Assembly: GCA_947302435.1 (NCBI GenBank)
Contig: CAMYVQ010000002.1
Location: 1 to 64,000, forward strand
Reading direction: 5' to 3'
Length of the DNA stretch: 64,000 nucleotides
Origin: an uncultured Prevotella sp.
Lineage (GTDB): Bacteria; Bacteroidota; Bacteroidia; Bacteroidales; Bacteroidaceae
Position 1 is the stretch's first letter. Every line of letters starts with the position of its first letter. The position numbers were made by a program, and so were the translations under genes. Positions 92 through 16,417 of this stretch are shown here, piece after piece. The notes under the pieces were generated by a model. It had not been told where the DNA came from. It saw nothing but the letters and a program-made list of their open reading frames with translations, and searched no databases.

Positions 92-949
92 TTATTTGAT
101 GAAAACTTTTTTGCCGTTGACGACAAACAGACCCTTGCTGGGATTAACCATGCGCTGGCCAGCGAGGTTGTAAACATCACTATTCACTTTCTCACTATTC
201 ATTAGCGTAGTGCTGACACCCGTGGCCTCTTTCTTGACGAGCACGATGGCTGTGAAGTTGAAAGGATTGCCGCCTTCCTTGTTGCACTGAACCATCAGTC
301 TGTCAGTGTCAAGTCTTGCAGACATGTCAATGCCTTCCAGGCTGAGTTCGGCATACTCGTTGGTCATGGTCATCGTGGTCTGGTCGCCCAACTTACCGCC
401 TTCATCCCATCTGGTGAGCACATTGATGACATAATCCGTGCGGTTAGCCTCTGAGTAGAAGCGGATGGCTCTGTAGTCGTCCCAGTTGATGCCATCGAAC
501 GAGGTTTTGGCCACCTCTAAGGTGCTCCACTCGTCCATCCAGAAGTAGCCTGTCCAGACCGTGTTCTCATCGACATTGTCCTTGCCGTCGCCAAACCATA
601 CCTTGGTAGCGGTGAATCCTTTGCCGCAAATCTCCATTCCGTGCTCTTTCAGACAGGCTAGCATGCCTGGGGTGATGAACACTTCCATTTCGTGCTGGTC
701 GGCATAGAGGAAGTGGGCGTAGCGTGTTCCAGGCAGCATGCCGCCGTTCGAGTGCAGTTCGATGACTTCTCCAGTGGCGTCGGTGAATTCAATGACGATT
801 TTCTGTCCTACCTGGGCTTCTGCAAACTTAGCAGCCTCGATAGTCAGCGTGTTAGACCAGTCTACTGCGTGCGTACCTTCCCACAGATCAGTAGCCATAG
901 TGATGGTGGTTGTTGCCATGAGGCACATGAGTAAAAATACTTTTTTCAT
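92..949 (-). CDS. Secreted protein with two beta-sandwich/CBM-like segments and a T9SS-like C-terminal tail
   Basis: ORF 92..976, likely start 949 (MKKVFLLMCLMATTTITMA signal peptide); C-term VYNLAGQRMVNPSKGLFVVNGKKVFIK; internal similarity LWEGTHAVDWSNTLTI / VWTGYFWMDEWSTLEV. Confidence 0.7.
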   Translation of the reverse strand: MKKVFLLMCLMATTTITMATDLWEGTHAVDWSNTLTIEAAKFAEAQVGQKIVIEFTDATGEVIELHSNGGMLPGTRYAHFLYADQHEMEVFITPGMLACLKEHGMEICGKGFTATKVWFGDGKDNVDENTVWTGYFWMDEWSTLEVAKTSFDGINWDDYRAIRFYSEANRTDYVINVLTRWDEGGKLGDQTTMTMTNEYAELSLEGIDMSARLDTDRLMVQCNKEGGNPFNFTAIVLVKKEATGVSTTLMNSEKVNSDVYNLAGQRMVNPSKGLFVVNGKKVFIK

Positions 950-1050
950 AATTTTGTTGTTTAAAGGGTTAGACACTAAAAAATTTCTGAGTACAAAATT
1001 ACTGCGAACAGGCCAATAAGATAAGAAGATATGTTACATAAGATAAGAGA

Positions 1051-1090
1051 AATCGTTCAATGTAACATTATTCTGCTACATTGAACGATA
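1051..1090. promoter_or_regulatory. Inverted-repeat candidate operator upstream of the 92..949 gene
   Basis: AATCGTTCAATGTA...TACATTGAACGATAATT; about 100-140 bp upstream of the start codon. Confidence 0.5.
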
Positions 1091-1113: not shown

Positions 1114-2712
1114 TTACTGTTGGCTGACTTTTACATCGCTGATGGTGATGGAGCCGCCGTAGTTGTTGATGCTCCAGCAGTTCTTGGTGATGCCATAGAT
1201 GCGCTGTGTATAGCACACGTTGTCGTTGATATACATCACCATGACGGTGTTGTCAGTATAGATGTCAATCTTGTAGGTGTTGTCTGCCGGACGGGTGAAG
1301 ATGTTGCCGTCGATGCCCTCAACGAATCCCTGTCCCTCTTCGCCTTCCTGCTCGAAGTTGATCTTGCGCTTGGCATTACCCTCTTCAGGATTTACCACCA
1401 TCGTGTAGTACTTCTTCGAGTCGGTGCCGCGCACGAGAGAGATGCCGAACTTGTCGCCGTCGCCTTCAGTCTTGACGGTCATGGATATATGGTTGCAGTT
1501 GCCCAGACGGTTGTAGAGCACGTAGGCATTGTCGCCCGTAAGCTTGCCGTTCACATAGCCGCTGGTCTTCATCACGGTGAGCACCTGCTCCTGGGTGTAC
1601 TTGGCCTTGATGGCAGGCACCTCGCCCAGCGTCAGTGTTCCGTCCTCATGCTGCACGACCTTGTGGCATACCAGTGCGCCACCCCACTTGGGCTCGTTAC
1701 CGGCACCGCCGCCCACATTGACGTTCATCTCGTGAATGTTCTTGGCATCTTTGTCGGCAACACGAATGGGACACCAGCCCCAGATGTAGCGGTCGGTACC
1801 GTTCGAGGCGGTCTTGCCTGCATAGAAGGCACGGCTGTCGAGCACCACCTCGCCGGCATCATTGCCGAAGCAGGTCTTCAGTTCCTCAAAGGTGGCAGCC
1901 TTCTTGTACTTCACCTTGCGGCTCCAGTTCTGCCTGTCGCTGTCGCTATAGACCAGATACCACCAGTCGCCCATCTTGAACACGTCAGGACACTCCAGCA
2001 TGCGGTTCCAGATCATGGGGAACTTGCCCACGTGCTCCCAGGTCTTCATGTCGCTCGACTTGAACTCGGCAAAGACAGGGTCGCCGCCAGTGGCAGGATA
2101 GGTGGAAATGATCATGTGGTAGAGGCCGTCCTCGGTGGTGAAGATCTGGGGGTCGCGGAAGTCAACGGTAGAATAGCCGAACTCTGCACCGCGCAGCGAC
2201 CAAGTGATGTCTTTCTTCCAGGTCTTGAAGTCGGCAGAGGTGGCACGCAGTACTACTTCCACATTCTCGCACTGGCCGTTGTGGCCTGTGTAGTAGATGT
2301 AGTAGAGACCGTCTTTCTCGTTATAGTAACAGCAGCCTGTACCGATGGCTGCGTCCTGCTCTAGGGTAGACGTACCCGTAGGCAGCACTTCGCCCATAGA
2401 CTGATAGTTGCCGCCATCGGTCGTGGTAATGCCCCAGATGGGGTGGAAGCAGGCACTGTTCTGGTCGTACTCCTGCAGATAGAGCACCTTGAACTCCTTG
2501 GCTTTCTGGTCGTAGAAGGGCATGGGGTCACCACAGCGGCCGATGGTGGGATTATAGTAGGTCAGTGTGCCGTTGGGATGGGTGGGCTGGAAGAACTCGG
2601 TCGTCTCGTTCCAGTTCTTGTCGGGGTCGCCGCTGAAATTGTCGTCGCTGCATGCCGTCAGCACAAGGGCTGACAGCATGAGGGCGAATACTGAATATTT
2701 CAAATTGTTCAT
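1114..2712 (-). CDS. GH32-family glycoside hydrolase (fructan-active), lipoprotein
   Basis: Lipobox VLTACSDD; GDPMPFYD (nucleophile-region equivalent), FRDPQIF (RDP motif), LECPDVF (EC acid/base motif). Confidence 0.85.
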   Translation of the reverse strand: MNNLKYSVFALMLSALVLTACSDDNFSGDPDKNWNETTEFFQPTHPNGTLTYYNPTIGRCGDPMPFYDQKAKEFKVLYLQEYDQNSACFHPIWGITTTDGGNYQSMGEVLPTGTSTLEQDAAIGTGCCYYNEKDGLYYIYYTGHNGQCENVEVVLRATSADFKTWKKDITWSLRGAEFGYSTVDFRDPQIFTTEDGLYHMIISTYPATGGDPVFAEFKSSDMKTWEHVGKFPMIWNRMLECPDVFKMGDWWYLVYSDSDRQNWSRKVKYKKAATFEELKTCFGNDAGEVVLDSRAFYAGKTASNGTDRYIWGWCPIRVADKDAKNIHEMNVNVGGGAGNEPKWGGALVCHKVVQHEDGTLTLGEVPAIKAKYTQEQVLTVMKTSGYVNGKLTGDNAYVLYNRLGNCNHISMTVKTEGDGDKFGISLVRGTDSKKYYTMVVNPEEGNAKRKINFEQEGEEGQGFVEGIDGNIFTRPADNTYKIDIYTDNTVMVMYINDNVCYTQRIYGITKNCWSINNYGGSITISDVKVSQQ

Positions 2713-2741: not shown

Positions 2742-4127
2742 TTATTTTCCTGACAGGTACTTGAAGGCATTGCCCGTCATGATACCCAGGTTGTTGTGAT
2801 AGTTCGGAGTGTAGGCAGCAGGCGAGTACCAGTCGTAGCAACCGGAACCGAAGCAGATGATGCCACCCTTGCCGAAGGTCTTGTCAAAGGCTGGAGCCTC
2901 CCAGACGACGACTGCCTGATCATCGCCATGAGCCAAGGCTTTGCAGCCTGTCTGCGACTCCCAGTCGGCAAAGTCGCTGAAGCCCCACTTGCCCCACTGT
3001 GACACACAGTTAGAAATCTGGTAGCCACCGTCAGTGGTGAAGATCTTCGTCGTAGCGTCCAGACCCGTCCACAGGGCGTGGGCAGCATCGTTGGGAATGA
3101 TGCCCCATTCTTCGCCGGCATTGATGACGGGACCGCCCTCGTCGCTTGCTCCCCAGCAGTTGTTGGCGCAGCGCTGGTCTTTCACGGCACCGAGCACAGC
3201 GGCAAAGTTCACAGCAGCACGGCTCAGGATGAAGGCACCACCGTTCTTATAGTAGTCCTGCAGCTTCGTGCGATAAGCCATGGCCGTAGAGGTGGCACCG
3301 CTTTCAAAGTCGGACATGTTCTCAGAGGGCTGGTGCTGCCAGTGCCACCAGATTACCTCACACTGCGAGAGGTCTATGTTGGCCATGTCGCCCCAAGAAA
3401 CGAAGATAGACTGTTCGACATTAGCCAGCATCCATTTGCAAGCCTCCTTCTCTTCGGGATCCAGTTCGTCCATCGAGGTGGCTTTTGCACTGCCCAGGAA
3501 GATAGCCTTGGGTGCAGCCACGGTGTGAATGGTCACGGTATAGGTGGCGGTTGCCGTATTGTCGGTCACGGTATAGGTGACAGGGTTGGTGAAGTCGGTG
3601 GGCACACCGTCGCGGGGCATGATCGACGCATCGTCGCTCAGCGTGATGGTGGGCACAATCGAGGTCACGTCAACCGTTGAGGGCAGGTAGGCCGTGATGG
3701 TATGGTCTTCCTCCTTGACGGTAGCCTTGTAGGTGTCGTTGATGATGAACGAGGTGATCTTGGCCTCGTCGTTCTTCACGTTGATAATCCAGTCGAGGAA
3801 GAGGTCGCCATTGGTGACGTGCAGCGGTTTGGCTGCCGAGAAGTCAATCACGTCGCCCACAGCCATGTTGGCCACGGCTCCCTCAGAGAGCTGCAGTTTG
3901 GTTATCTTCATCTGTGCCTTGTTGGCAGAGGTGAAGCTGACGGGCACCTTCACCTTGACGGTGCGGTTTCTGAGGTCAACGATGCCCGTGTATGTTCCGT
4001 CGAGTTCAAACGACTCTACCATGCAGTCGCCCGACAGTAGCAGACTGCTCGTGTTGTCGCTTGAGCAAGCCGTCAGCACCAGCACTGATGCGATAAGGGC
4101 GAAGGTAGCATAAAATAATTTTTTCAT
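2742..4127 (-). CDS. DUF4960-type surface lipoprotein of a fructan PUL
   Basis: Lipobox VLTACSSD; position next to SusD/GH32 and architecture resemble B. thetaiotaomicron BT1761-type proteins; start MKKLFYATFAL taken from ORF 2742..4160. Confidence 0.7.
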   Translation of the reverse strand: MKKLFYATFALIASVLVLTACSSDNTSSLLLSGDCMVESFELDGTYTGIVDLRNRTVKVKVPVSFTSANKAQMKITKLQLSEGAVANMAVGDVIDFSAAKPLHVTNGDLFLDWIINVKNDEAKITSFIINDTYKATVKEEDHTITAYLPSTVDVTSIVPTITLSDDASIMPRDGVPTDFTNPVTYTVTDNTATATYTVTIHTVAAPKAIFLGSAKATSMDELDPEEKEACKWMLANVEQSIFVSWGDMANIDLSQCEVIWWHWQHQPSENMSDFESGATSTAMAYRTKLQDYYKNGGAFILSRAAVNFAAVLGAVKDQRCANNCWGASDEGGPVINAGEEWGIIPNDAAHALWTGLDATTKIFTTDGGYQISNCVSQWGKWGFSDFADWESQTGCKALAHGDDQAVVVWEAPAFDKTFGKGGIICFGSGCYDWYSPAAYTPNYHNNLGIMTGNAFKYLSGK

Positions 4128-4184
4128 AATTGTATGTTTCTTTAATGATTGCAGAAGCAAAAAATCATTCTTAACTATTCACGA

Positions 4185-5918
4185 TTATTCACCCCACTTG
4201 TTGTTCTGCTTGTAGTGACCATTAGAAGCGGCAATCTGCTCGTGAGGGATGGGCAGGTACTCGTCGCGGTCGGCAGTGAACTGAGCCTCGCTGAGGTATG
4301 CCACGCGCTCTTTCTCCTTCGTGGCATAGCGGGTGAGCACAGAAGCGGCATCGCCCCAGCGCACAAGGTCGAAGAAGCGTTCGCTCTCCATGGCCAGCTC
4401 CAGACGGCGTTCGGTCTTCACCATCTCCAGAGCCTCCTCCTTGGTGTAAGTACCTTCGTAGTTCTTGCAATAGATGTGTACGCCATAGACGCTTTGGTAG
4501 TCCTTGATCATATTGAGGCTTCCAGCAGCACGGGTACGGATGCGGTTCACCAGCTTGACGGCTTCGTCTGCACTGCCAGTCTGAGCCAGAGCCTCGGCAC
4601 GCATCAGCAGCACGTCGGCATAGCGGAAGACGATGCGGTTCATGGAACTTGCCCAGTAGGAGCCGTGAATGAGGTAGGAGCCGATGAGGGCGGGATCGAC
4701 ATTGTGCTTCAGCGTGACGTTGTAGCCATAGATGCCGTTTGAGCGGCTCCATGAAGCCGACTTGTCCATGATGAAGTTCTTGTTGAACATGTAGGGCAGT
4801 CCGGTGATGCCAACGGTGAGGAACAGACGCGGATCGGCATTGTCGGTAGTCAGGTCGTAGTTAGCATCGTTGTAGTCGGCCATAGGCAGTCCGTTGATGT
4901 CGGTTTTGTAAGCGTTGACCAGATTCTGCGAAGGCTTGTAGAAGTCACAGCCACCGTCGGTCACTTCGGCAATGTTGGGAACGATCAGTCCGTAAGACCA
5001 GTTCAGGTTGCCGTAGGTGCTGCCGTCGTTGCGCGAGTACTGGATAGCCCATACCGACTCTACACCGTTCTCATACTGCTCCTCGGGTCGGAAATTGTTG
5101 TGGAAGTCGGCCTCCAGGTCGTACTGAGGCTCGTAGAGCTTGGCATCGGTATAGTCCAACACCTTCTTCAGGTCATCGGCATTGACAGAGGTCACCTTGT
5201 TTGAGTTGGCATCGTCCTGACGGTAGGCCTTGTAGAGATAGACCTTGGCGAGGAAGGCGGCACAGGCAGCTCTCGTGGGGCGGCCCTTATCGGCCTGAGT
5301 GGCAGGCAGTGCGGCGTATGCATCCTCCAAATCCTTGGCTATGACAGCCCAACCCTCATCGTTGGTATATTCGCGGTTCGACAGCGCGTTATACTCTTCC
5401 TCGGTCATGTCGGCCTTGATGACGAAGGGAATGTTCTTGAACAGACGCTTCAGCTGGAAGTGGCCGTAGGCACGCAGGAACTTCATCTCTGCCATGCGTG
5501 GAGCCTTCAGCGGATTGGTATCGTCGGTCTTCTCAATCACGGCGATGGCAGCATTGACACGCGACAGCGCGTTGTACAGGCGAGTCCAGATGTCGTTGAT
5601 GTTCCAGTTGGTGGTCAGCACACCCTTCTCCACCTCTAACTGGTGGAACACGTCGCCGTCGTTGGTCGACGAGCCGCCTTTATAGGCATCGTCGCTGCGC
5701 ACGTCGAAGTTCCACAGGGAGAACGACGAGTTGATGTCCTCAGCCGATGTGAACACGGCGTATGCAGAAATAACCAGGTTGTCCATTTTGTCTGAGCTGG
5801 TCACCTCGATGTCAGAGAGCGTTCCCTGCGGCTTCTGCTCGTCCAGGAAGTCGGAGCAGGAGGTAAGCAATGCGCCCAGTGGCAAAGCTATCAAAAGTCT
5901 TCTGTATATCGTTTTCAT
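4185..5918 (-). CDS. susD: SusD/RagB family nutrient-binding lipoprotein
   Basis: Lipobox LLTSCSDFLDE; SusD-like N- and C-terminal sequence (AEALAQTG...ERFFDLVRWGDA...YLPIPHEQI). Confidence 0.93.
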   Translation of the reverse strand: MKTIYRRLLIALPLGALLTSCSDFLDEQKPQGTLSDIEVTSSDKMDNLVISAYAVFTSAEDINSSFSLWNFDVRSDDAYKGGSSTNDGDVFHQLEVEKGVLTTNWNINDIWTRLYNALSRVNAAIAVIEKTDDTNPLKAPRMAEMKFLRAYGHFQLKRLFKNIPFVIKADMTEEEYNALSNREYTNDEGWAVIAKDLEDAYAALPATQADKGRPTRAACAAFLAKVYLYKAYRQDDANSNKVTSVNADDLKKVLDYTDAKLYEPQYDLEADFHNNFRPEEQYENGVESVWAIQYSRNDGSTYGNLNWSYGLIVPNIAEVTDGGCDFYKPSQNLVNAYKTDINGLPMADYNDANYDLTTDNADPRLFLTVGITGLPYMFNKNFIMDKSASWSRSNGIYGYNVTLKHNVDPALIGSYLIHGSYWASSMNRIVFRYADVLLMRAEALAQTGSADEAVKLVNRIRTRAAGSLNMIKDYQSVYGVHIYCKNYEGTYTKEEALEMVKTERRLELAMESERFFDLVRWGDAASVLTRYATKEKERVAYLSEAQFTADRDEYLPIPHEQIAASNGHYKQNNKWGE

Positions 5919-5987: not shown

Positions 5988-8900
5988 TTAGAATGAGACA
6001 TTGACACCGAAGGTCACATTGAGCGGAATAGGATAGCCGAACTGCGGGTTCTCAGGATCCTCGCCCGTGAACTTGCTGCTCTTGATGGTCAGCAGGTTCT
6101 GAGCCGAGAGATACGTGCGAATCTTCGACATGTGCAGCTTGTCGGTCAGTGTCTTAGGCAGGTTAAAGCCCAGCTGTATGGTGCGCAGCTTCAGGTAGGA
6201 GCCGTTCTCCACATAGTAAGAGGAGAAGCGTTTCTCATTGTTGTTGTCGTTGAGTGAAAGGGCCGGGATGTTCGAGTTGGGGTTGTTGGGTGTCCATGCA
6301 TCGAGCACGCGGCTGCCCTTGTTCAGATTGGCCACGTTCACGCCAGCCCAGAGATCGGTCTGCACCTTGTAGGCACCATTGACGTCATCGCCGGGTTTCA
6401 CGGTCATCAGGGCATCAACACCCTGCACGCCCTGCCAGAACATGGTGAAGTCGAAGTCCTTGTACTGCAGATAGACGTTCAGACCATAGCTGAAGTCGGG
6501 TGTCGGGTCGTAGATCCACTCCTGGTCTTTCTCGTTGATGATGCCGTTGCCGTCAAGGTCCTTGAAGCGCATGCGGCCTACGGATGCTCCTTCCTGCCTG
6601 GCATGGTTGTCCACCTCGTCCTGGCTCTTGAAGATGCCGTCGAAGACGTAGCCCACGTAGGAGTTGATGGGGTGACCCACGACGCTCTCTACGCCGCTGC
6701 CGCCGAAGGTGCCTTTCGAGGCGATGGTCTCAGGCAGTTTGGTCACCTCGTTGCGGTTGGTGCTGATGTTGCCGGCAATGTCGAAGCTGAAGTCGCCGAT
6801 GTTGCCGCGATAGCCCAGGTTGAACTCAAAGCCTCTGTTCTCTACCTCACCAGCATTGATCCACTTGGCACTGCCTTCACCCATGATGCCTATGCCTGGC
6901 ATATTGACCAGAATGTCCTTGGTCTTCTTGAAGTACCACTCAACGCTACCGTACAGGGCATTGTGGAAGAAGCCGAAGTCAAGGCCAAGGTTGGTCTGTG
7001 TGGTGGTCTCCCACTTGATGTCGTCATTGCCCAGCTGCTCGCGCTTGAAGCCTGAGTTCAGCGTCTGGCCGCCATTGCTGCCCTGAATGTCGTAGGACGT
7101 TCCGTAGCTCTGTCCGCCGAATCCTGCTTCGCCATAGACGGCCTTGTAGATAGAATAGCGGGCAGTGTTGGCAATATCCTGGTTACCCGTCTGGCCCCAT
7201 GAGGCACGCAGTTTCAGGTTGTCAAGCCATTCCTTGGCAGGCTCCATGAATTTCTCTTCAGAGATACGCCAGCCGGCACTCACCGAGGGGAACGTACCGT
7301 ACTTGTTGTTCTTACCGAAGCGGCTGCTGCCGTCGCGGCGCAGGGTGATGCTGGCCAGATAACGGTCGTTATAGGTGTAGTTGAACTTTCCGAAGAACGA
7401 CACAAGCGAATAGCCTTCGCCCGAACCGAATGCCTGCTGCTCGCCCACACCGGCACTGGGCCACATATAGTCGGGAGTAAGCACAGAATAATCGTAGCGC
7501 TTGCCGGCAAACCAGGTATCGTCCTGACGGTTCAGCTCCATACCAACCAATGCGTCGGCACGGTGCTTGCCAATCTCAAGATTATAGGTGGCGATGGCGT
7601 TCCACATCCACTTCATCCAGTGTTCCTGCTTGGCTTCCACGGCATTCTCGTCGTTGGCCACGTTGCCATTCTTAATAGGATAGGTGAAGAAGCGCTGCTC
7701 CTTCTGTGAGTAGTCAATACCGAAGGTGGTCTTCAGCATCAGGTTCTTGATGGGCTGCAGACTGATGAACACATCGCCGAACGTGCGCCAGTAGGTGTAG
7801 CGGTTGTCCTTGTTGCGGTCGAGCACCTCCAAGGGGTTCTCACGGTCAGAGTAGGCACCGGTCAGGTTGGCATACTCGCCCTTCATGTTATAGACAGGGA
7901 ACGAGGGGTTATACTGCAGCACGTTGCCGAGGAATCCGCCGGGAGCCGATACCTCCGACGTGCGGTTCAGGGTGAAGTGCTCGCCAATAGTCAGCATGTC
8001 GCCCAGCAGTTTATAGTCGGTATTCATACGGGCAGAGAAACGTTCAAAGTCGCTCTCCTTGATGATGCCCAGGTTCTTGTAATAGCCCAGTGAGAAGAAA
8101 CTGGAACCATGTTCCGAGCCGTTGCTCACGCTGACGTTATAGTTTTGGATAACACCCGTGCGTGTGGTCTTGTCGAACCAGTCGGTATCGGCCGTGGGCA
8201 CTGTGTTGGCAGCGTCCATATACTTCTGCATAGACAGGCCGTGCAGCTGGGGCACGCCGTTCTCACCGTAGCTCCAGTCGAAGTGGTAGCCCAGAGCGGC
8301 ATACTTGTCGCTGTTGGGATCCTGACCGTCGTTGACGACTGCCTGCCACAGGGCGCGGCCCCATTCCTCAGAGTTGAGCACCTTCATGGGGTGGGCATAC
8401 ATAGAGGCAGCGATACTGGCATCGAGGTTCACCTTCACCTGGCCGCTCTTGCCGCGCTTGGTGGTGATGATAATTACACCGTTGGCAGCACGCGAACCGT
8501 AGATAGAAGCCGAGGCGGCATCCTTCAGCACCTGTATGCTCTCGATGTCGTTGCCGTTCAGCTCGTGCATGCCCGCCTTGGTGGGAACACCGTCGATGAT
8601 GTAGAGCGGGTCGTTGTTGTTCAGTGTGCCGATACCGCGAATGCGCACCGTGGCAGCACCCGAGGGATTACCGTCGGCAGAGATGTTCATGCCTGGCACA
8701 CGGCCCTGCAGGGCCTTCATCGGGTTGTTCTCGTTCTGCTTGGCCATCTCGTCGATGCTCACCGTCGAAACGGCACCTGTCAGGTCGGCTTTGCGCTGGG
8801 TGGTATAGCCCGTCACCACCACCTCGTTCAGCATCAGATTGTCGTCCTTCATCACCACCGTCATGCCTTTCTGGGCAGGCAGTTCCTGATTCTGGAAACC

Positions 8901-9125
8901 AATGTAGCTGAAGACGAGCATGGTGCCTTCCTTCACCTTTAGTTTGAAATTGCCGTCGAAGTCGGTCACCGTACCGTTGGCCGTCCCCTTTTCTTTTACC
9001 GTAGCTCCGATAATCGGTTCACCCGTCTCGTCAGCTACGGTTCCCGTAATCTCTGTCTGCGCATACATTATTGTACTGAGCATCAGAGTCAGGAAACTCA
9101 ACAAGATTCGTTTTGCTTGTTTCAT
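5988..9125 (-). CDS. susC: SusC/RagA family TonB-linked outer membrane protein
   Basis: Carboxypeptidase-like N-domain (ITGTVADETGEPIIGATV), plug LNEVVVTGYTTQRKADLTGAVS, DPLYIIDGVP, C-term NVTFGVNVSF; start 9125. Confidence 0.96.
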   Translation of the reverse strand: MKQAKRILLSFLTLMLSTIMYAQTEITGTVADETGEPIIGATVKEKGTANGTVTDFDGNFKLKVKEGTMLVFSYIGFQNQELPAQKGMTVVMKDDNLMLNEVVVTGYTTQRKADLTGAVSTVSIDEMAKQNENNPMKALQGRVPGMNISADGNPSGAATVRIRGIGTLNNNDPLYIIDGVPTKAGMHELNGNDIESIQVLKDAASASIYGSRAANGVIIITTKRGKSGQVKVNLDASIAASMYAHPMKVLNSEEWGRALWQAVVNDGQDPNSDKYAALGYHFDWSYGENGVPQLHGLSMQKYMDAANTVPTADTDWFDKTTRTGVIQNYNVSVSNGSEHGSSFFSLGYYKNLGIIKESDFERFSARMNTDYKLLGDMLTIGEHFTLNRTSEVSAPGGFLGNVLQYNPSFPVYNMKGEYANLTGAYSDRENPLEVLDRNKDNRYTYWRTFGDVFISLQPIKNLMLKTTFGIDYSQKEQRFFTYPIKNGNVANDENAVEAKQEHWMKWMWNAIATYNLEIGKHRADALVGMELNRQDDTWFAGKRYDYSVLTPDYMWPSAGVGEQQAFGSGEGYSLVSFFGKFNYTYNDRYLASITLRRDGSSRFGKNNKYGTFPSVSAGWRISEEKFMEPAKEWLDNLKLRASWGQTGNQDIANTARYSIYKAVYGEAGFGGQSYGTSYDIQGSNGGQTLNSGFKREQLGNDDIKWETTTQTNLGLDFGFFHNALYGSVEWYFKKTKDILVNMPGIGIMGEGSAKWINAGEVENRGFEFNLGYRGNIGDFSFDIAGNISTNRNEVTKLPETIASKGTFGGSGVESVVGHPINSYVGYVFDGIFKSQDEVDNHARQEGASVGRMRFKDLDGNGIINEKDQEWIYDPTPDFSYGLNVYLQYKDFDFTMFWQGVQGVDALMTVKPGDDVNGAYKVQTDLWAGVNVANLNKGSRVLDAWTPNNPNSNIPALSLNDNNNEKRFSSYYVENGSYLKLRTIQLGFNLPKTLTDKLHMSKIRTYLSAQNLLTIKSSKFTGEDPENPQFGYPIPLNVTFGVNVSF

Positions 9126-9204
9126 TTGCTTTACGTTTTTAGTTAATACTCTTTGTTTGGAAATCTGCTGCAAAAGTATCAACAATATGATTATCTATAT
9201 TAAA

Positions 9205-9269
9205 AATATCGTTCACTCCGTGCAAAATATGTTGCAATGTAACATTTTTGCGATGGAATGAACGATATT
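9205..9269. promoter_or_regulatory. Inverted-repeat candidate operator upstream of susC
   Basis: AATATCGTTCACTCC (9205-9219) / GGAATGAACGATATT (9255-9269), 14/15 complementary; interior CAATGTAACATT shared with 1051-1090. Confidence 0.55.
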
Positions 9270-9286: not shown

Positions 9287-10843
9287 TTATTTCCTTACGT
9301 CGCCTGGCACCATGCCGTATTCTTCCTTGAAGCACTTGGTGAAGTACGAAGGGGCCGTGAAACCGACGGCGTAGGCCACCTCGGAAACACTCTTGTCGGT
9401 GGTGAGCAGTAACTGGTAGGCGCGGTTCAGACGGGCTTTTCGTAGCAATTCTACGGGTGATGCACCAGCCACAGCCTTCACCTTGCGATAAAGCTGCACG
9501 CGGCTCAGATTCAGATCGGCGGCCAAGTCCTCTACGCTAAGCTCACTGTCGCTCAACCGTGACTCTATCACGCTTCTGAAATGGGTGATGAAGGCCGAGA
9601 CTGCCACTGGCTCGTCTTCTGCTATTGCTTCGTCTTCTGCCACGGCCCCAGCCGGCTTGTCAGTCTTTTCTTCTTGCTCACGAGGGGATTCCTGTTGTTG
9701 CAGATTCCACAGATTATTGACAATGCGTTCCTTCTGTATGTTCACCTTGCTGAGATGATAGAGATAGAACAGGATGAAGACTATAAGTAGCAGCATGATC
9801 ACACCGATGGCCAGCCAGTTGATGACGCGCTGCGTGTCAAGCTCATGCAGGTAGTTGTCGGCTTTATTGTGTAACTGATCCAGACGGTCAGCCTGCCGCA
9901 TCAGTTCTTCGCTCTGCATGAGCAGTACTTTGGCATTGTCACTTGTAACCAAGGCCGACATCAGCAAGGTCTCCTTCTCGTAGGGTTCGCTTTCGAGGAT
10001 GCGCACGGCCAGGTCGATGATCTGGTCGCCGTGGGTGGGATAGATATACGAGGCATCAAGCAGCGAGTCGCGCACCAACTGTATGCCGCCGTTCTCGCCT
10101 GGCAGGCCGTCGATGCCACAATAGAGAGGCCCCCTCCCTGCCTCCCCCGACTGGGGGAGGAGTTGGAAAGCCCTGCGGGCACCCATGGCAGTGCGGTCGT
10201 TTGCGCCGAACACTAAGTCTACGCGTACATCCTTATTATTATTGAGCCATTGTTTTATTCTCTCGTATGCCGTCGGCTCTGTCCAGTCGCCTTGTAATGA
10301 GGCAACCACCTTAATGCCAGATGCATCCTTGATGGCATCCATAAAGCCGTTGTGGCGCTCGATGGCAGGTGACGAGCCTTCCAAGCCCTTTATTTCCAAC
10401 ACATTGCCCTGTCCATGAAGCCGAGAGACAATGTATTCACCCATCACACGTCCCATCTCGTAGTTGTCGGCACTAATAAAGGCGGTATATTTCTGCGAAT
10501 TGGTCTTCCGCTCGAACACGATGACAGGGATGCCTTTGTCGTAGGCTCGGTCGATGGCAGGCGAGATGGTGGCCACCTGATTGGGAGCCACAATCAAGAG
10601 GTCGATGCCATCGTTCATGAGACTGTCGATCTGCTGCACCTGCCGCTCATCACTGTCGTATGCGGCGGCAAACTTCAGTTCCACATTGTCGTGGAAATAG
10701 GCTCCCATGCGCAACTCAGCATTCTGCTTGTCACGCCAGATGTCAGCCGAACATTGGGATATTCCGATACGGTACTTTACTTTGTCTCCAGAGCAAGATG
10801 CAAGTACCGTAGCCAATACAAATAAATAAAAGAATCTTTTCAT
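9287..10843 (-). CDS. Transmembrane one-component regulator: periplasmic sugar-binding (PBP1) domain + TM + AraC-type HTH; no kinase/receiver
   Basis: N-term lipobox-like VLASCSGD, PBP1 fold motifs (IGISQCSADIWRDK, IPVIVFERKT, YCGIDGLPGENG), TM VINWLAIGVIMLLLIVFILFYLYHL, C-term AraC HTH (LSVEDLAADLNLSRVQLYRKVKAV...VSEVAYAVGFTAPSYFTKCFKEEYG). Confidence 0.9.
   Translation of the reverse strand: MKRFFYLFVLATVLASCSGDKVKYRIGISQCSADIWRDKQNAELRMGAYFHDNVELKFAAAYDSDERQVQQIDSLMNDGIDLLIVAPNQVATISPAIDRAYDKGIPVIVFERKTNSQKYTAFISADNYEMGRVMGEYIVSRLHGQGNVLEIKGLEGSSPAIERHNGFMDAIKDASGIKVVASLQGDWTEPTAYERIKQWLNNNKDVRVDLVFGANDRTAMGARRAFQLLPQSGEAGRGPLYCGIDGLPGENGGIQLVRDSLLDASYIYPTHGDQIIDLAVRILESEPYEKETLLMSALVTSDNAKVLLMQSEELMRQADRLDQLHNKADNYLHELDTQRVINWLAIGVIMLLLIVFILFYLYHLSKVNIQKERIVNNLWNLQQQESPREQEEKTDKPAGAVAEDEAIAEDEPVAVSAFITHFRSVIESRLSDSELSVEDLAADLNLSRVQLYRKVKAVAGASPVELLRKARLNRAYQLLLTTDKSVSEVAYAVGFTAPSYFTKCFKEEYGMVPGDVRK
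10128..10170. repeat. In-frame GC-rich palindromic repeat inside the regulator gene
   Basis: GGCCCCCTCCCTGCCTCCCCCGACTGGGGGAGGAGTTGG; reverse complement matches the family copy at 22814-22854. Confidence 0.75.
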
Positions 10844-13692: not shown

Positions 13693-15461
13693 CCATTATA
13701 CAGATTAGCGAGGCTGGAAGTGGGATTGCCACCCGCCTACAGGAGCACTATCCCGCAGCCGTCATTATAAGTCGCGACGCAGTTGCGACAAACTGGACGC
13801 AGTTCGATGCCTTTATCTTCATCGGAGCAATGGGCATCTGTGTGAGGACGATTGCGCCTCTCGTGGAGGACAAGCACAAAGACCCTGCTGTGGTGTGTGT
13901 CGACAGCTTCGGACAGAATGTCATTTCCGTGCTCAGCGGTCATGTGGGCGGTGCCAACGACTTGACTCGTCAAGTGGCTGCCATCATCGGAGGGCATGAG
14001 GTCATCACCACCCAAAGCGACAATGCTGGTCTGTGGGCGCTCGACACTTTTGAGAAGCGTTTCGACTGGCCTGTTGCCAGCGACATCGAAGACATGAACG
14101 ACTGCATCTTCGCTTTCGTGAAACGCCAACCCACCGCCCTGCTCTTGGAGGCAAGAGATGAAGGAACGGACTATTTGGAGAAGACGATGCCCGAGCATGT
14201 CACTCTTATCAACGACATCAGAGAGGCGGATTCCCAAAAATACAAGCTCGTCATCATCGTGTCACCCTACATTCAGCATTATCCGGCAGGGATGCAGGTC
14301 TTGCACTTCGTCCCGATGGTTGGCACGATTGGCTTTGGCCTGGCTCATCATCCTGATGACTACGAATACATCTACGACCAGATGGATGAAGCCTTCGCTG
14401 ACCGTGGCATTCTGCCCTGCGCCCATCGCTATTGTACGATCGATGTGAAGGCCGACGAGCCCTTTGTGGAGGAGCTGAAGAATGTGTATGACGAGGAGGT
14501 GGTGTTCTATACTGCTGAGGAGTTGGCGAAAGTAGATGTGCCCAACCCCAGCGCGACGGTTGCCAAGCACGTCGGCACACCCAGCGTGTGCGAAGCGGCA
14601 GCCATCTTGGGCTCCAATCATGGCAAGCTCATCATCCCGAAGGTGAAGGGAAAGAATTGGACGGCAGCCCTTGCCATCGATGAGAAACATCTTCGCCGGA
14701 AGAAAGGGCACATCGAGATTGTGGGTGCCGGCCCTGGCGACCCAGATTTGGTGAGTGTCAGGGGAAGAAAGATGCTGGAACGTGCCGACCTTATTCTCTA
14801 TGCTGGCTCGCTTGTTCCCAAAGCCCTTACGGAGTGCCACAAGCCCGGTGCTGTGGTGAGAAGTAGTGCCGACATGAATCTTGAAGAGCAGTGTGTACTC
14901 ATGAAAGAGCATTACGACTGTGGCCATTTCATCGTCCGCCTGCACACTGGCGACCCCTGCATCTTCGGGGCCATTCAGGAGCAGATGGCCTTCTTCGACC
15001 GCGAGGGCATGTCCTATCACATCACCCCAGGCATCTCGTCTTTCCTTGCCGCCGCCGCTGAATTGCAGAGCCAGTTCACCATACCTGAGCGCACGCAGAC
15101 CATTATCCTCACCCGTGGCGAAGGTCGCACACCAATGCCAGAGAAGGAAAAGCTGCACCTGTTGGCTCGCAGTCAGAGTACGATGTGCATCTTCCTCTCG
15201 GCACCCATTGTCGACGATGTGCAGGCCCAGCTTCTTCAGGAATATCCCGAGGACACCCCCGTCGCCGCCTGCTATCACCTCACCTGGCCCGACCAGAAGA
15301 TCTACCGTGGCGTATTGAAAGACCTCGCCCGTATGGTCCATGACAACCACCTCACCCTCACCACCATGCTCGTTGTTGGCGAGGCCATCGGCAACCGTCA
15401 GGGACTCTCCGAGCTTTACAACAAGCACTTCACCCATCTGTTCCGACAGGGTGAAGTCTGA
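13680..15461 (+). CDS. cbiG-cobM: Fused CbiG (cobalt-precorrin-5A hydrolase) + precorrin-4 C11-methyltransferase (CobM/CbiF)
   Basis: CbiG: FIFIGAMGICVRTIAPLVEDKHKDPAVV...LSGHVGGAN; CobM: IEIVGAGPGDPDLVSVRG...ADLILYAGSLVP. Confidence 0.92.
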   Translation: MQTIAIIQISEAGSGIATRLQEHYPAAVIISRDAVATNWTQFDAFIFIGAMGICVRTIAPLVEDKHKDPAVVCVDSFGQNVISVLSGHVGGANDLTRQVAAIIGGHEVITTQSDNAGLWALDTFEKRFDWPVASDIEDMNDCIFAFVKRQPTALLLEARDEGTDYLEKTMPEHVTLINDIREADSQKYKLVIIVSPYIQHYPAGMQVLHFVPMVGTIGFGLAHHPDDYEYIYDQMDEAFADRGILPCAHRYCTIDVKADEPFVEELKNVYDEEVVFYTAEELAKVDVPNPSATVAKHVGTPSVCEAAAILGSNHGKLIIPKVKGKNWTAALAIDEKHLRRKKGHIEIVGAGPGDPDLVSVRGRKMLERADLILYAGSLVPKALTECHKPGAVVRSSADMNLEEQCVLMKEHYDCGHFIVRLHTGDPCIFGAIQEQMAFFDREGMSYHITPGISSFLAAAAELQSQFTIPERTQTIILTRGEGRTPMPEKEKLHLLARSQSTMCIFLSAPIVDDVQAQLLQEYPEDTPVAACYHLTWPDQKIYRGVLKDLARMVHDNHLTLTTMLVVGEAIGNRQGLSELYNKHFTHLFRQGEV

Positions 15462-15499
15462 AAACAGTCATGATCCAACACATCACCAAACACTCTTGA

Positions 15500-16417
15500 A
15501 TGATGAACGACAGAGGTTGCTTGCCTTCATTCCTAGTCCTGACACTGTTCAGTGCCTTGTTCGTCGCATTTGTTTTCTCGCTGTCTAAGATTGTCCATGT
15601 CGATGATTTTCAACAACGTATCAGCAACCGATGGGAAAGACTGAAGTCTGACCGAGAGGAAACCCGTCGACGGGAGGTGGAACAGCAGAAACAGAAAGAA
15701 GCAGCTCTGGTGGAGCAAAGATTTAAAGCTCAGCAGGAAGAAGAACACCGATTGGCAGAAGCTCAGCAAGCGAATGTGACTGACACCGTGGTTGCAGAGC
15801 CTCCTGTCGATGAGAACATCCTGAAGCAACGCTTCGATTCACTGTGTCAGGTTGCCTTACGCAATTATCACCGCATGCCAGTATCAACTCCTCGAGCCGT
15901 TGACTTAGGGCTTAGCGTGCTTTGGGCCGACCGTAATCTGGGAGCCAAAAACAGTGATGAGAGTGGTTACTTCTTCACCCGTACAGGTAAACAGATTGAA
16001 AAGACGACAAAACGTTATTCGGAAATAGACGAGGCCATCCTGGCACAGCCGTCACTCGGCATGACGGCTTTCGATGCTGCACACATGCTTCTCTCTCACG
16101 GATGGCGATTGCCGACAGAAGAGGAGATGGTTGAGCTGAAGACCCGTTGCCAATGGGGCCAAGCTCAATACAACAATAAGAAGGAAGCCAATGTCTTGAT
16201 TGTCACTAACAATCAGGACATCAGTCTTCGCATCCCGCTATCAGGATTCATGCTAAAAAGTAGCGGCTTCACAAAAGAAGGTCATGCCACCATGTTCTGG
16301 TTGGCCGAGAACACACCCCATAACGTGTTCTACATCCACCCCCAAAACGGCATGTACCAGCCTCAGTTGCGCGACTTCGACATCGCAATGCCCATCAGAC
16401 CAGTAAAAGACAGGTAA
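15500..16417 (+). CDS. Membrane-anchored coiled-coil protein with FISUMP/DUF1566-like C-terminal domain
   Basis: N-terminal TM, RREVEQQKQKEAALVEQRFKAQQEEE coil, AVDLGLSVLWADRNLGA...GWRLPTEEEM. Confidence 0.65.
   Translation: MMNDRGCLPSFLVLTLFSALFVAFVFSLSKIVHVDDFQQRISNRWERLKSDREETRRREVEQQKQKEAALVEQRFKAQQEEEHRLAEAQQANVTDTVVAEPPVDENILKQRFDSLCQVALRNYHRMPVSTPRAVDLGLSVLWADRNLGAKNSDESGYFFTRTGKQIEKTTKRYSEIDEAILAQPSLGMTAFDAAHMLLSHGWRLPTEEEMVELKTRCQWGQAQYNNKKEANVLIVTNNQDISLRIPLSGFMLKSSGFTKEGHATMFWLAENTPHNVFYIHPQNGMYQPQLRDFDIAMPIRPVKDR

Follow-up and report, generated by a model that had tools for sequence, protein, structure and literature searches.

We conclude that the gene at 9287-10843 on the minus strand probably encodes a membrane-tethered one-component activator of the fructan PUL beside it, derived from a BT1754-like hybrid two-component system (HTCS) that lost its kinase and receiver. 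The gene lies in the window, the stretch of 64,000 nucleotides analysed here (positions 1 to 64,000 of contig CAMYVQ010000002.1, from an uncultured, rumen-type Prevotella sp.), directly upstream of susC, susD, DUF4960 and GH32 genes on the same strand. An earlier note on this DNA had assigned these genes to a fructan PUL and the assignment stands, with Pfam and TIGR04056 recovering susC, susD, DUF4960 and a GH32 with a BT1760-like C-terminus. The features on which the argument draws are as follows.

92-976, minus strand: secreted protein, probable start near 948, likely regulon member (35-bp operator ahead of the gene)
1054-1088, minus strand: second putative operator copy, in the 35-bp form, ahead of the next PUL gene
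1114-2712, minus strand: GH32 with a BT1760-like C-terminal domain, fructanase (PF16346, PF00251)
2742-4160, minus strand: DUF4960/DUF5018 protein, probable surface glycan-binding protein (Pfam)
4185-5918, minus strand: susD-like lipoprotein (PF07980)
5988-9185, minus strand: susC-like TonB-dependent transporter (TIGR04056, 932 bits; the coordinates are the ORF limit and an in-frame downstream Met is the likely start)
9171-9178, minus strand: Bacteroidetes-type -7 box TACTTTTG of the susC promoter (TAnnTTTG at a fixed distance from the half-site)
9209-9265, minus strand: putative operator, two facing 21-bp direct-repeat pairs, 56 bp from TCGTTCA to TGAACG
9287-10843, minus strand: class A regulator, with lipoprotein signal, PBP1 sensor, TM, disordered linker and AraC HTH
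9290-9598, minus strand: AraC-type DNA-binding domain (DBD), residues 416-518 (HTH_18; HTCS and AraC DBDs in the PDB)
9599-9700, minus strand: acidic linker, residues 382-415, predicted disordered and weakly constrained (pLDDT, dN/dS)
9701-9742, minus strand: juxtamembrane motif NIQKERIVNNLWNL, consensus LQRERVVNTLWNM, the signature of lineage A1
9752-9823, minus strand: transmembrane helix, residues ~341-364 (sequence; AF2 model)
9839-10786, minus strand: periplasmic fructose-type sensor, residues ~20-335 (Peripla_BP_4; match to 2x7x)
10793-10843, minus strand: lipoprotein signal peptide with lipobox LASC and Cys17 (LPAM_1 above cut-off; Cys17 invariant)

The regulator ORF runs uninterrupted from an ATG at 10843 to a stop at 9287 and encodes 518 aa. 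The HMM scan that the earlier note had proposed (Pfam, with residues counted from a TTG five codons upstream of the ATG) found an LPAM_1 lipobox at 6-23 (20.5 bits, cut-off 20), Peripla_BP_4 at 56-289 (149 bits, cut-off 35.1) and HTH_18 at 445-523 (79.9 bits, cut-off 33.6), the last being the mark of an AraC/XylS DBD, and gave no match to HisKA, HATPase_c or Response_reg in the protein; nor was there any match to HATPase_c or REC on the window's contig. Structure prediction, also proposed there, gave an AlphaFold2 (AF2) monomer model with a mean pLDDT of 86, in which a PBP fold is followed by a single continuous helix, 304-377, that runs from the end of the PBP through the TM (~341-364), then by a disordered stretch, 376-411 (pLDDT <50), and a helical DBD, 411-518. 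ORF calls, Pfam and AF2 thus bear out the layout first read from the letters, that of one ORF with a PBP1 sensor, a TM, a linker and an AraC HTH. Like an HTCS, the regulator has a periplasmic sensor, a TM and an AraC-type DBD in a single chain. The HTCS kinase core (HisKA plus HATPase_c) is missing, Pfam finding no match and AF2 showing the 74-residue helix and then disorder, and so is the receiver with its phospho-acceptor Asp, as Response_reg is absent from protein and contig alike. A DBD with at least one TM in one chain, free of phosphorelay domains, is the layout of a transmembrane transcription regulator (TTR), whereas the lipobox and TM helix separate the protein from the soluble XylR type, which is cytosolic and has neither signal peptide nor TM; as to the SusR family, with its SusR-type DBD and maltose-type sensor, Pfam assigns HTH_18 and Peripla_BP_4 here instead. 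We also considered a kinase or REC remnant in the linker, and Pfam, finding none, ruled it out. The lipobox-like LASC that had been pointed out at the N-terminus is real, with Cys17 invariant across 37 aligned proteins. It is, however, present in all classes of relatives, including 21 of 22 full HTCSs, and is for that reason not peculiar to the kinase-less form.

The sensor belongs to the BT1754 type. Its best PDB match is 2x7x, the BT1754 fructose sensor (phmmer, E 8e-81), to which it is homologous as a PBP1 domain with conserved pocket-type residues, and the same fructose-binding domain is the top Foldseek match to the regulator model (TM-score 0.93 on the target). Residues R112, R163, W187, N215, D216 and D245 are invariant across the 37 aligned proteins and identical in BT1754. 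From the 42% identity of the sensor to that of BT1754, together with the PUL context, we infer that the ligand is fructose or a short fructan product.

Relatives of the regulator fall into three discrete architectures. We collected 187 distinct sensor homologues and classed the 179 that have an HTH by the distance from sensor to HTH, which is 58-129 aa in class A (n=116), 292-384 aa in class B (n=39) and 450-524 aa in class C (n=24), with no spacing between these ranges among the 179 proteins. Class A is PBP-TM-HTH, with neither kinase nor receiver; class B is HisKA-REC-HTH without an ATPase domain; class C is the complete HTCS. HATPase_c was absent from the five class B proteins tested by Pfam and, by a local profile, from all 39 (among them L042, L043, L046, L049 and L050), and in the AF2 model of class B the DHp hairpin continues into REC with no HATPase_c. 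All 39 nonetheless keep the H-box His, the acidic pair and the phospho-acceptor Asp and Lys of REC. Class B thus looks able to hold a phosphoryl group and unable to make one, which leaves it two options, phosphorylation from another source or a way of working that needs none. In the order as a whole, almost every sensor homologue has the length of class C, and outside the window's family A and B are rare. Class A loci with over 2.5 kb of downstream sequence number 69, and in 63 of them susC comes directly next, on the same strand.

What lies between the regulator and susC is equally regular. An inverted repeat, TCGTTCA...TGAACG, stands between the regulator stop and susC in 96 loci; it is 55/56 bp long in 76 of them and 34/35 bp in 20, and no other length occurs. 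The predicted operator is the direct repeat TCGTTCA-21 bp-TGTTACA, present as two copies on opposite strands, and in the window its half-sites are TCGTTCA (9265-9259), TGTTACA (9244-9238), TGCAACA (9236-9230) and TGAACGA (9215-9209). It is conserved in 76 of 89 loci of the window's lineage, A1, and in 20 Ax, B and C loci; only 6 of 26 Ax and 11 of 39 B loci have it, and many of those in which it was not found are placed elsewhere relative to susC. In all 76 loci with a unique -7 box TAnnTTTG, across A, B and C, the left half-site starts 86-88 bp upstream of the box (87 bp in 59, 86 in 14 and 88 in 3); the distance between the box and the inverted copy is 31 or 52 bp, two values that differ by exactly 21 bp, or two helical turns. 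Classes A, B and C can, on this pattern, share one putative operator, TCGTTCA-21 bp-TGTTACA. The region that the earlier note had proposed for EMSA, 9205-9269, coincides with it. The HTCS motifs predicted for Bacteroides are direct repeats as well, their sites lying 21 bp apart on average (PMC3878776). We also tried the inverted repeat as a plain terminator, given its hairpin-like form and T-run. The fixed lengths, the 21-bp step and the constant spacing from the -7 box are better explained by protein binding, and a dual role in termination and protein binding is possible.

How might a ligand outside the membrane control this promoter with no phosphorelay between them? We propose that fructose or a short fructan product would close the periplasmic PBP domain, that closure would be transmitted along the one continuous helix across the membrane, and that the two tethered AraC domains of a dimer would thereby be rearranged, would then engage TCGTTCA-21 bp-TGTTACA upstream of the susC promoter and, once engaged, would recruit RNA polymerase. 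BT1754 is a precedent for the ligand, and E. coli XylR for a PBP-AraC switch that works without phosphorylation. In a functional BT1754/BT0366 chimera, moreover, the sensor, the TM and 14 cytoplasmic residues served as one transferable unit (PMC3404733). The earlier note had named two routes for the signal, through the membrane to a tethered HTH or by processing that releases it, and the first is the most economical reading. Regulated proteolysis, in which ligand binding would lead to cleavage in the linker or TM and free the HTH as a soluble factor, is unlikely in our judgement. The linker (382-415), disordered and weakly constrained, is what a cleavage site could look like, but no conserved cleavage motif was seen in it and its sequence and length vary freely, at 58-129 aa from sensor to HTH, whereas the juxtamembrane helix beside the TM is conserved; in addition, the direct-repeat operator implies dimerisation, which an AraC DBD cut free would lose.

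If signalling passes through the membrane to a tethered HTH, what became of the control that a receiver exerts? Gao et al. (2024; PMC11253607) predicted that the HTCS receiver inhibits the DBD through an S/CHIP motif in REC, with two DBD residues facing the motif: an Asp in helix 6 and, 39 residues further on, a Lys in the recognition helix. At the Asp position we counted 22 D and 2 E in 24 class C proteins, 8 D and 26 E in 39 of class B, and 1 D and 18 E in 89 of A1, where the residue is mostly V, T, G or S, although these counts come from related sequences and are hence not independent; almost all proteins of A1, B and C retain the Lys. The constraint on the REC-facing residue is, to judge from these counts, relaxed in A1, whose receiver is gone. 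In A1, whose DBD no longer keeps the REC-contact residue, control of dimer geometry therefore appears to have taken the place of REC-dependent inhibition. Of the 27 class A proteins outside A1, 23 have the Asp. Losing REC thus does not by itself entail losing this residue, and its retention there may reflect a more recent REC loss or another role.

A further rival, a phosphorelay acting in trans, would have the regulator pair as a heterodimer with another HTCS or histidine kinase of the cell, or work downstream of one, and we regard it as more doubtful than proteolysis. Intact HTCS and HK genes are present elsewhere in the genome (C19, C30), class B relatives keep their His and Asp phosphorylation residues in the absence of an ATPase domain, and a missing partner is conceivable because the genome is a MAG of ~76% completeness. 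Class A, however, has neither a HisKA nor a REC to accept a phosphoryl group, the contig carries no kinase or REC, no B- or C-type fructan HTCS or second fructan-type sensor was found elsewhere in the MAG, and the REC-facing DBD residue has drifted in A1.

The kinase-less form is widespread and maintained. Full-length regulators without phosphorelay domains occur in ~70 of 250 same-genus genomes, in answer to the survey of Prevotella genomes that had been suggested, and cultured or named carriers are Xylanibacter brevis ATCC 19188, P. koreensis KCOM 3155, Prevotella aff. ruminicola Tc2-24 and Prevotella communis E15-14, the last with a complete genome. The earlier note had said that its reading would fall if HisKA, HATPase or REC domains were detected in the linker or if resequencing revealed an assembly deletion between TM and HTH. 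The former are absent by Pfam, and an assembly deletion as the origin of the form is rejected, as some 70 genomes and isolates, including a complete genome, share it. Pairwise dN/dS is 0.08-0.19 over the whole protein and, for the window's pairs, ~0.06 in the sensor and 0.04-0.1 in the HTH; it is high mainly in the linker, in most pairs where it is measurable. The regulator is under purifying selection in both sensor and HTH. In some genomes a class A gene stands beside B or C genes; in L187, a class A and a class B regulator, at 2820-4383 and 13927-16168 (plus strand), flank one susC/susD/DUF4960/GH32 locus.

Such company, and the likeness of the regulator to a truncated HTCS, might suggest that the protein is a remnant, decaying or blind to its ligand, or that it competes by sitting on the operator and does not activate. 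We hold this reading to be more improbable still: the dN/dS values of the window's pairs and the invariance of the pocket-type residues speak against it, as do the facts that this is the only fructan-type regulator found in the genome and that the form is kept next to an intact PUL in many species.

Was the phosphorelay of this regulator lost, or was it never present? The earlier note had left both open, and comparison with relatives supports loss, because C is the general form across the order, most kinase-less forms nest within it on the sensor tree and forms that have lost only the ATPase exist. The trees are built on 340 columns for the sensor and 103 for the HTH, whose tree is poorly resolved. 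In the sensor tree most A and B sequences are nested inside C; A1 plus B1 is nested in C with starred support, B1 forming a grade around A1, so that the sensor of the window's lineage sits in a grade of ATPase-less B proteins. The careful sensor tree (58 rows) needs 10 architecture changes, where a quick tree (100 rows) had suggested 17. A single origin was rejected for all A (p-AU 3e-93), for all B (p-AU 6e-10), for A and B together as CA-less forms (p 0.006) and for the A1 sensors (p 0.0004), and at least five kinds of junction are visible. The phosphorelay thus seems to have been stripped out stepwise and repeatedly. HTH and sensor trees agree in placing A2 with B2, A3 with C and A5 with C, and A2 retains the first HisKA residues (MNEEQTLFYTDA, compared with MNDEQTAFYTNARHQLRTP in B2); because both ends of the gene keep the same relatives, A2, A3 and A5 look like in-place internal deletions. 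The HTH domains of A1 cluster and its sensors do not, and therefore A1 likely has a history of deletion and of sensor exchange with B genes by recombination. An independent fusion of a fructose sensor to an unrelated AraC gene, with no phosphorelay ever lost, earns as little credence as a remnant, for although the A1 sensors, not being one clade, show that domain exchange happens, A2, A3 and A5 have matching relatives at both gene ends, A2 keeps the HisKA start and the operator geometry is common to B and C. Two further candidates failed. Derivation of the A1 juxtamembrane 'NTLWN' from the class B post-REC helix 'LLKDLWG' is unsupported, with 13% above the 95% null (profile against shuffled linkers), and an apparent sensor-TM protein that stops after the HisKA start beside a class A gene (L036:3-1190, minus strand) is only a record-edge cut, as in L138, a longer record of that contig, the reading frame continues to an HTH of A2 type.

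With less assurance than we attach to the regulator itself, we incline to the broader view that one sensor-operator pair has persisted while the relay between them was dismantled repeatedly, C to B to A, ligand closure coming to be passed mechanically to the same DNA site. If true, the phosphorelay of an HTCS is dispensable for ligand-controlled transcription. Relatives alive today, sharing one sensor and one putative operator, represent the start, middle and end of a path from two components to one, and natural module swaps at one promoter could ask what the phosphorelay contributes in gain, threshold, memory and REC inhibition of the DBD.

Kinase-less membrane regulators as such are already a known kind, as TTRs and SusR illustrate. 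BT1754 of B. thetaiotaomicron (PMC3404733, 2x7x) resembles the window protein in its homologous PBP1 sensor, its single TM leading to an AraC DBD and its adjacent fructan PUL with susC/susD and GH32, but carries HisKA, HATPase_c and REC between TM and DBD where the window protein has none. TTRs (ToxR/CadC type, N. gonorrhoeae Rsp) share the outside sensor, TM and inside DBD in one polypeptide with no phosphorelay, whereas the window protein has an AraC output and a sugar-binding PBP sensor, and its putative HTCS descent is recurrent and traceable through intermediates. A 2023 survey of TTRs (PMC10269533) raised the possibility that they derive from two-component systems and pointed to Rsp, in which the PilS receptor is joined to the PilR DBD; its text does not mention AraC. 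SusR (Bacteroides, PMC3878776) is also an inner-membrane PUL regulator with periplasmic sensor and cytoplasmic DBD, but forms its own Bacteroidetes family with a different DBD, unlike the AraC/HTCS-type DBD and PBP sensor seen here. The window protein has a PBP-type sugar domain and an AraC DBD without phosphorylation, as XylR does, and differs in its signal peptide and TM. E. coli XylR joins a PBP/LacI-type sugar domain to its AraC DBD and is soluble and cytoplasmic, with no signal peptide or TM. It is cited as an AraC-type regulator in PMC11253607. In the open-access literature, our searches turned up neither PBP-TM-AraC regulators nor ATPase-less HTCSs; the PBP-TM-AraC form, the ATPase-less class B and the recurrent, graded path with a constant operator appear to be new within it. 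In Segatella copri DSM18205 the inulin PUL is reported to lack a contiguous HTCS (PMC11784079), and class A-type regulators, which an HTCS-only annotation would miss, are a candidate answer to that gap.

Two minor observations concern the surroundings of the operator. In several A1 loci, for example L086, L091 and L093, the regulator stop is closely followed by short tandem repeats (CAACTCGTCAACTTGT...), which separate the gene from the operator. The gene at 92-976 (minus strand) probably belongs to the fructan regulon, to judge from the operator copy ahead of it; its protein has no Pfam match, and the C-terminus resembles a Prevotella sorting domain.
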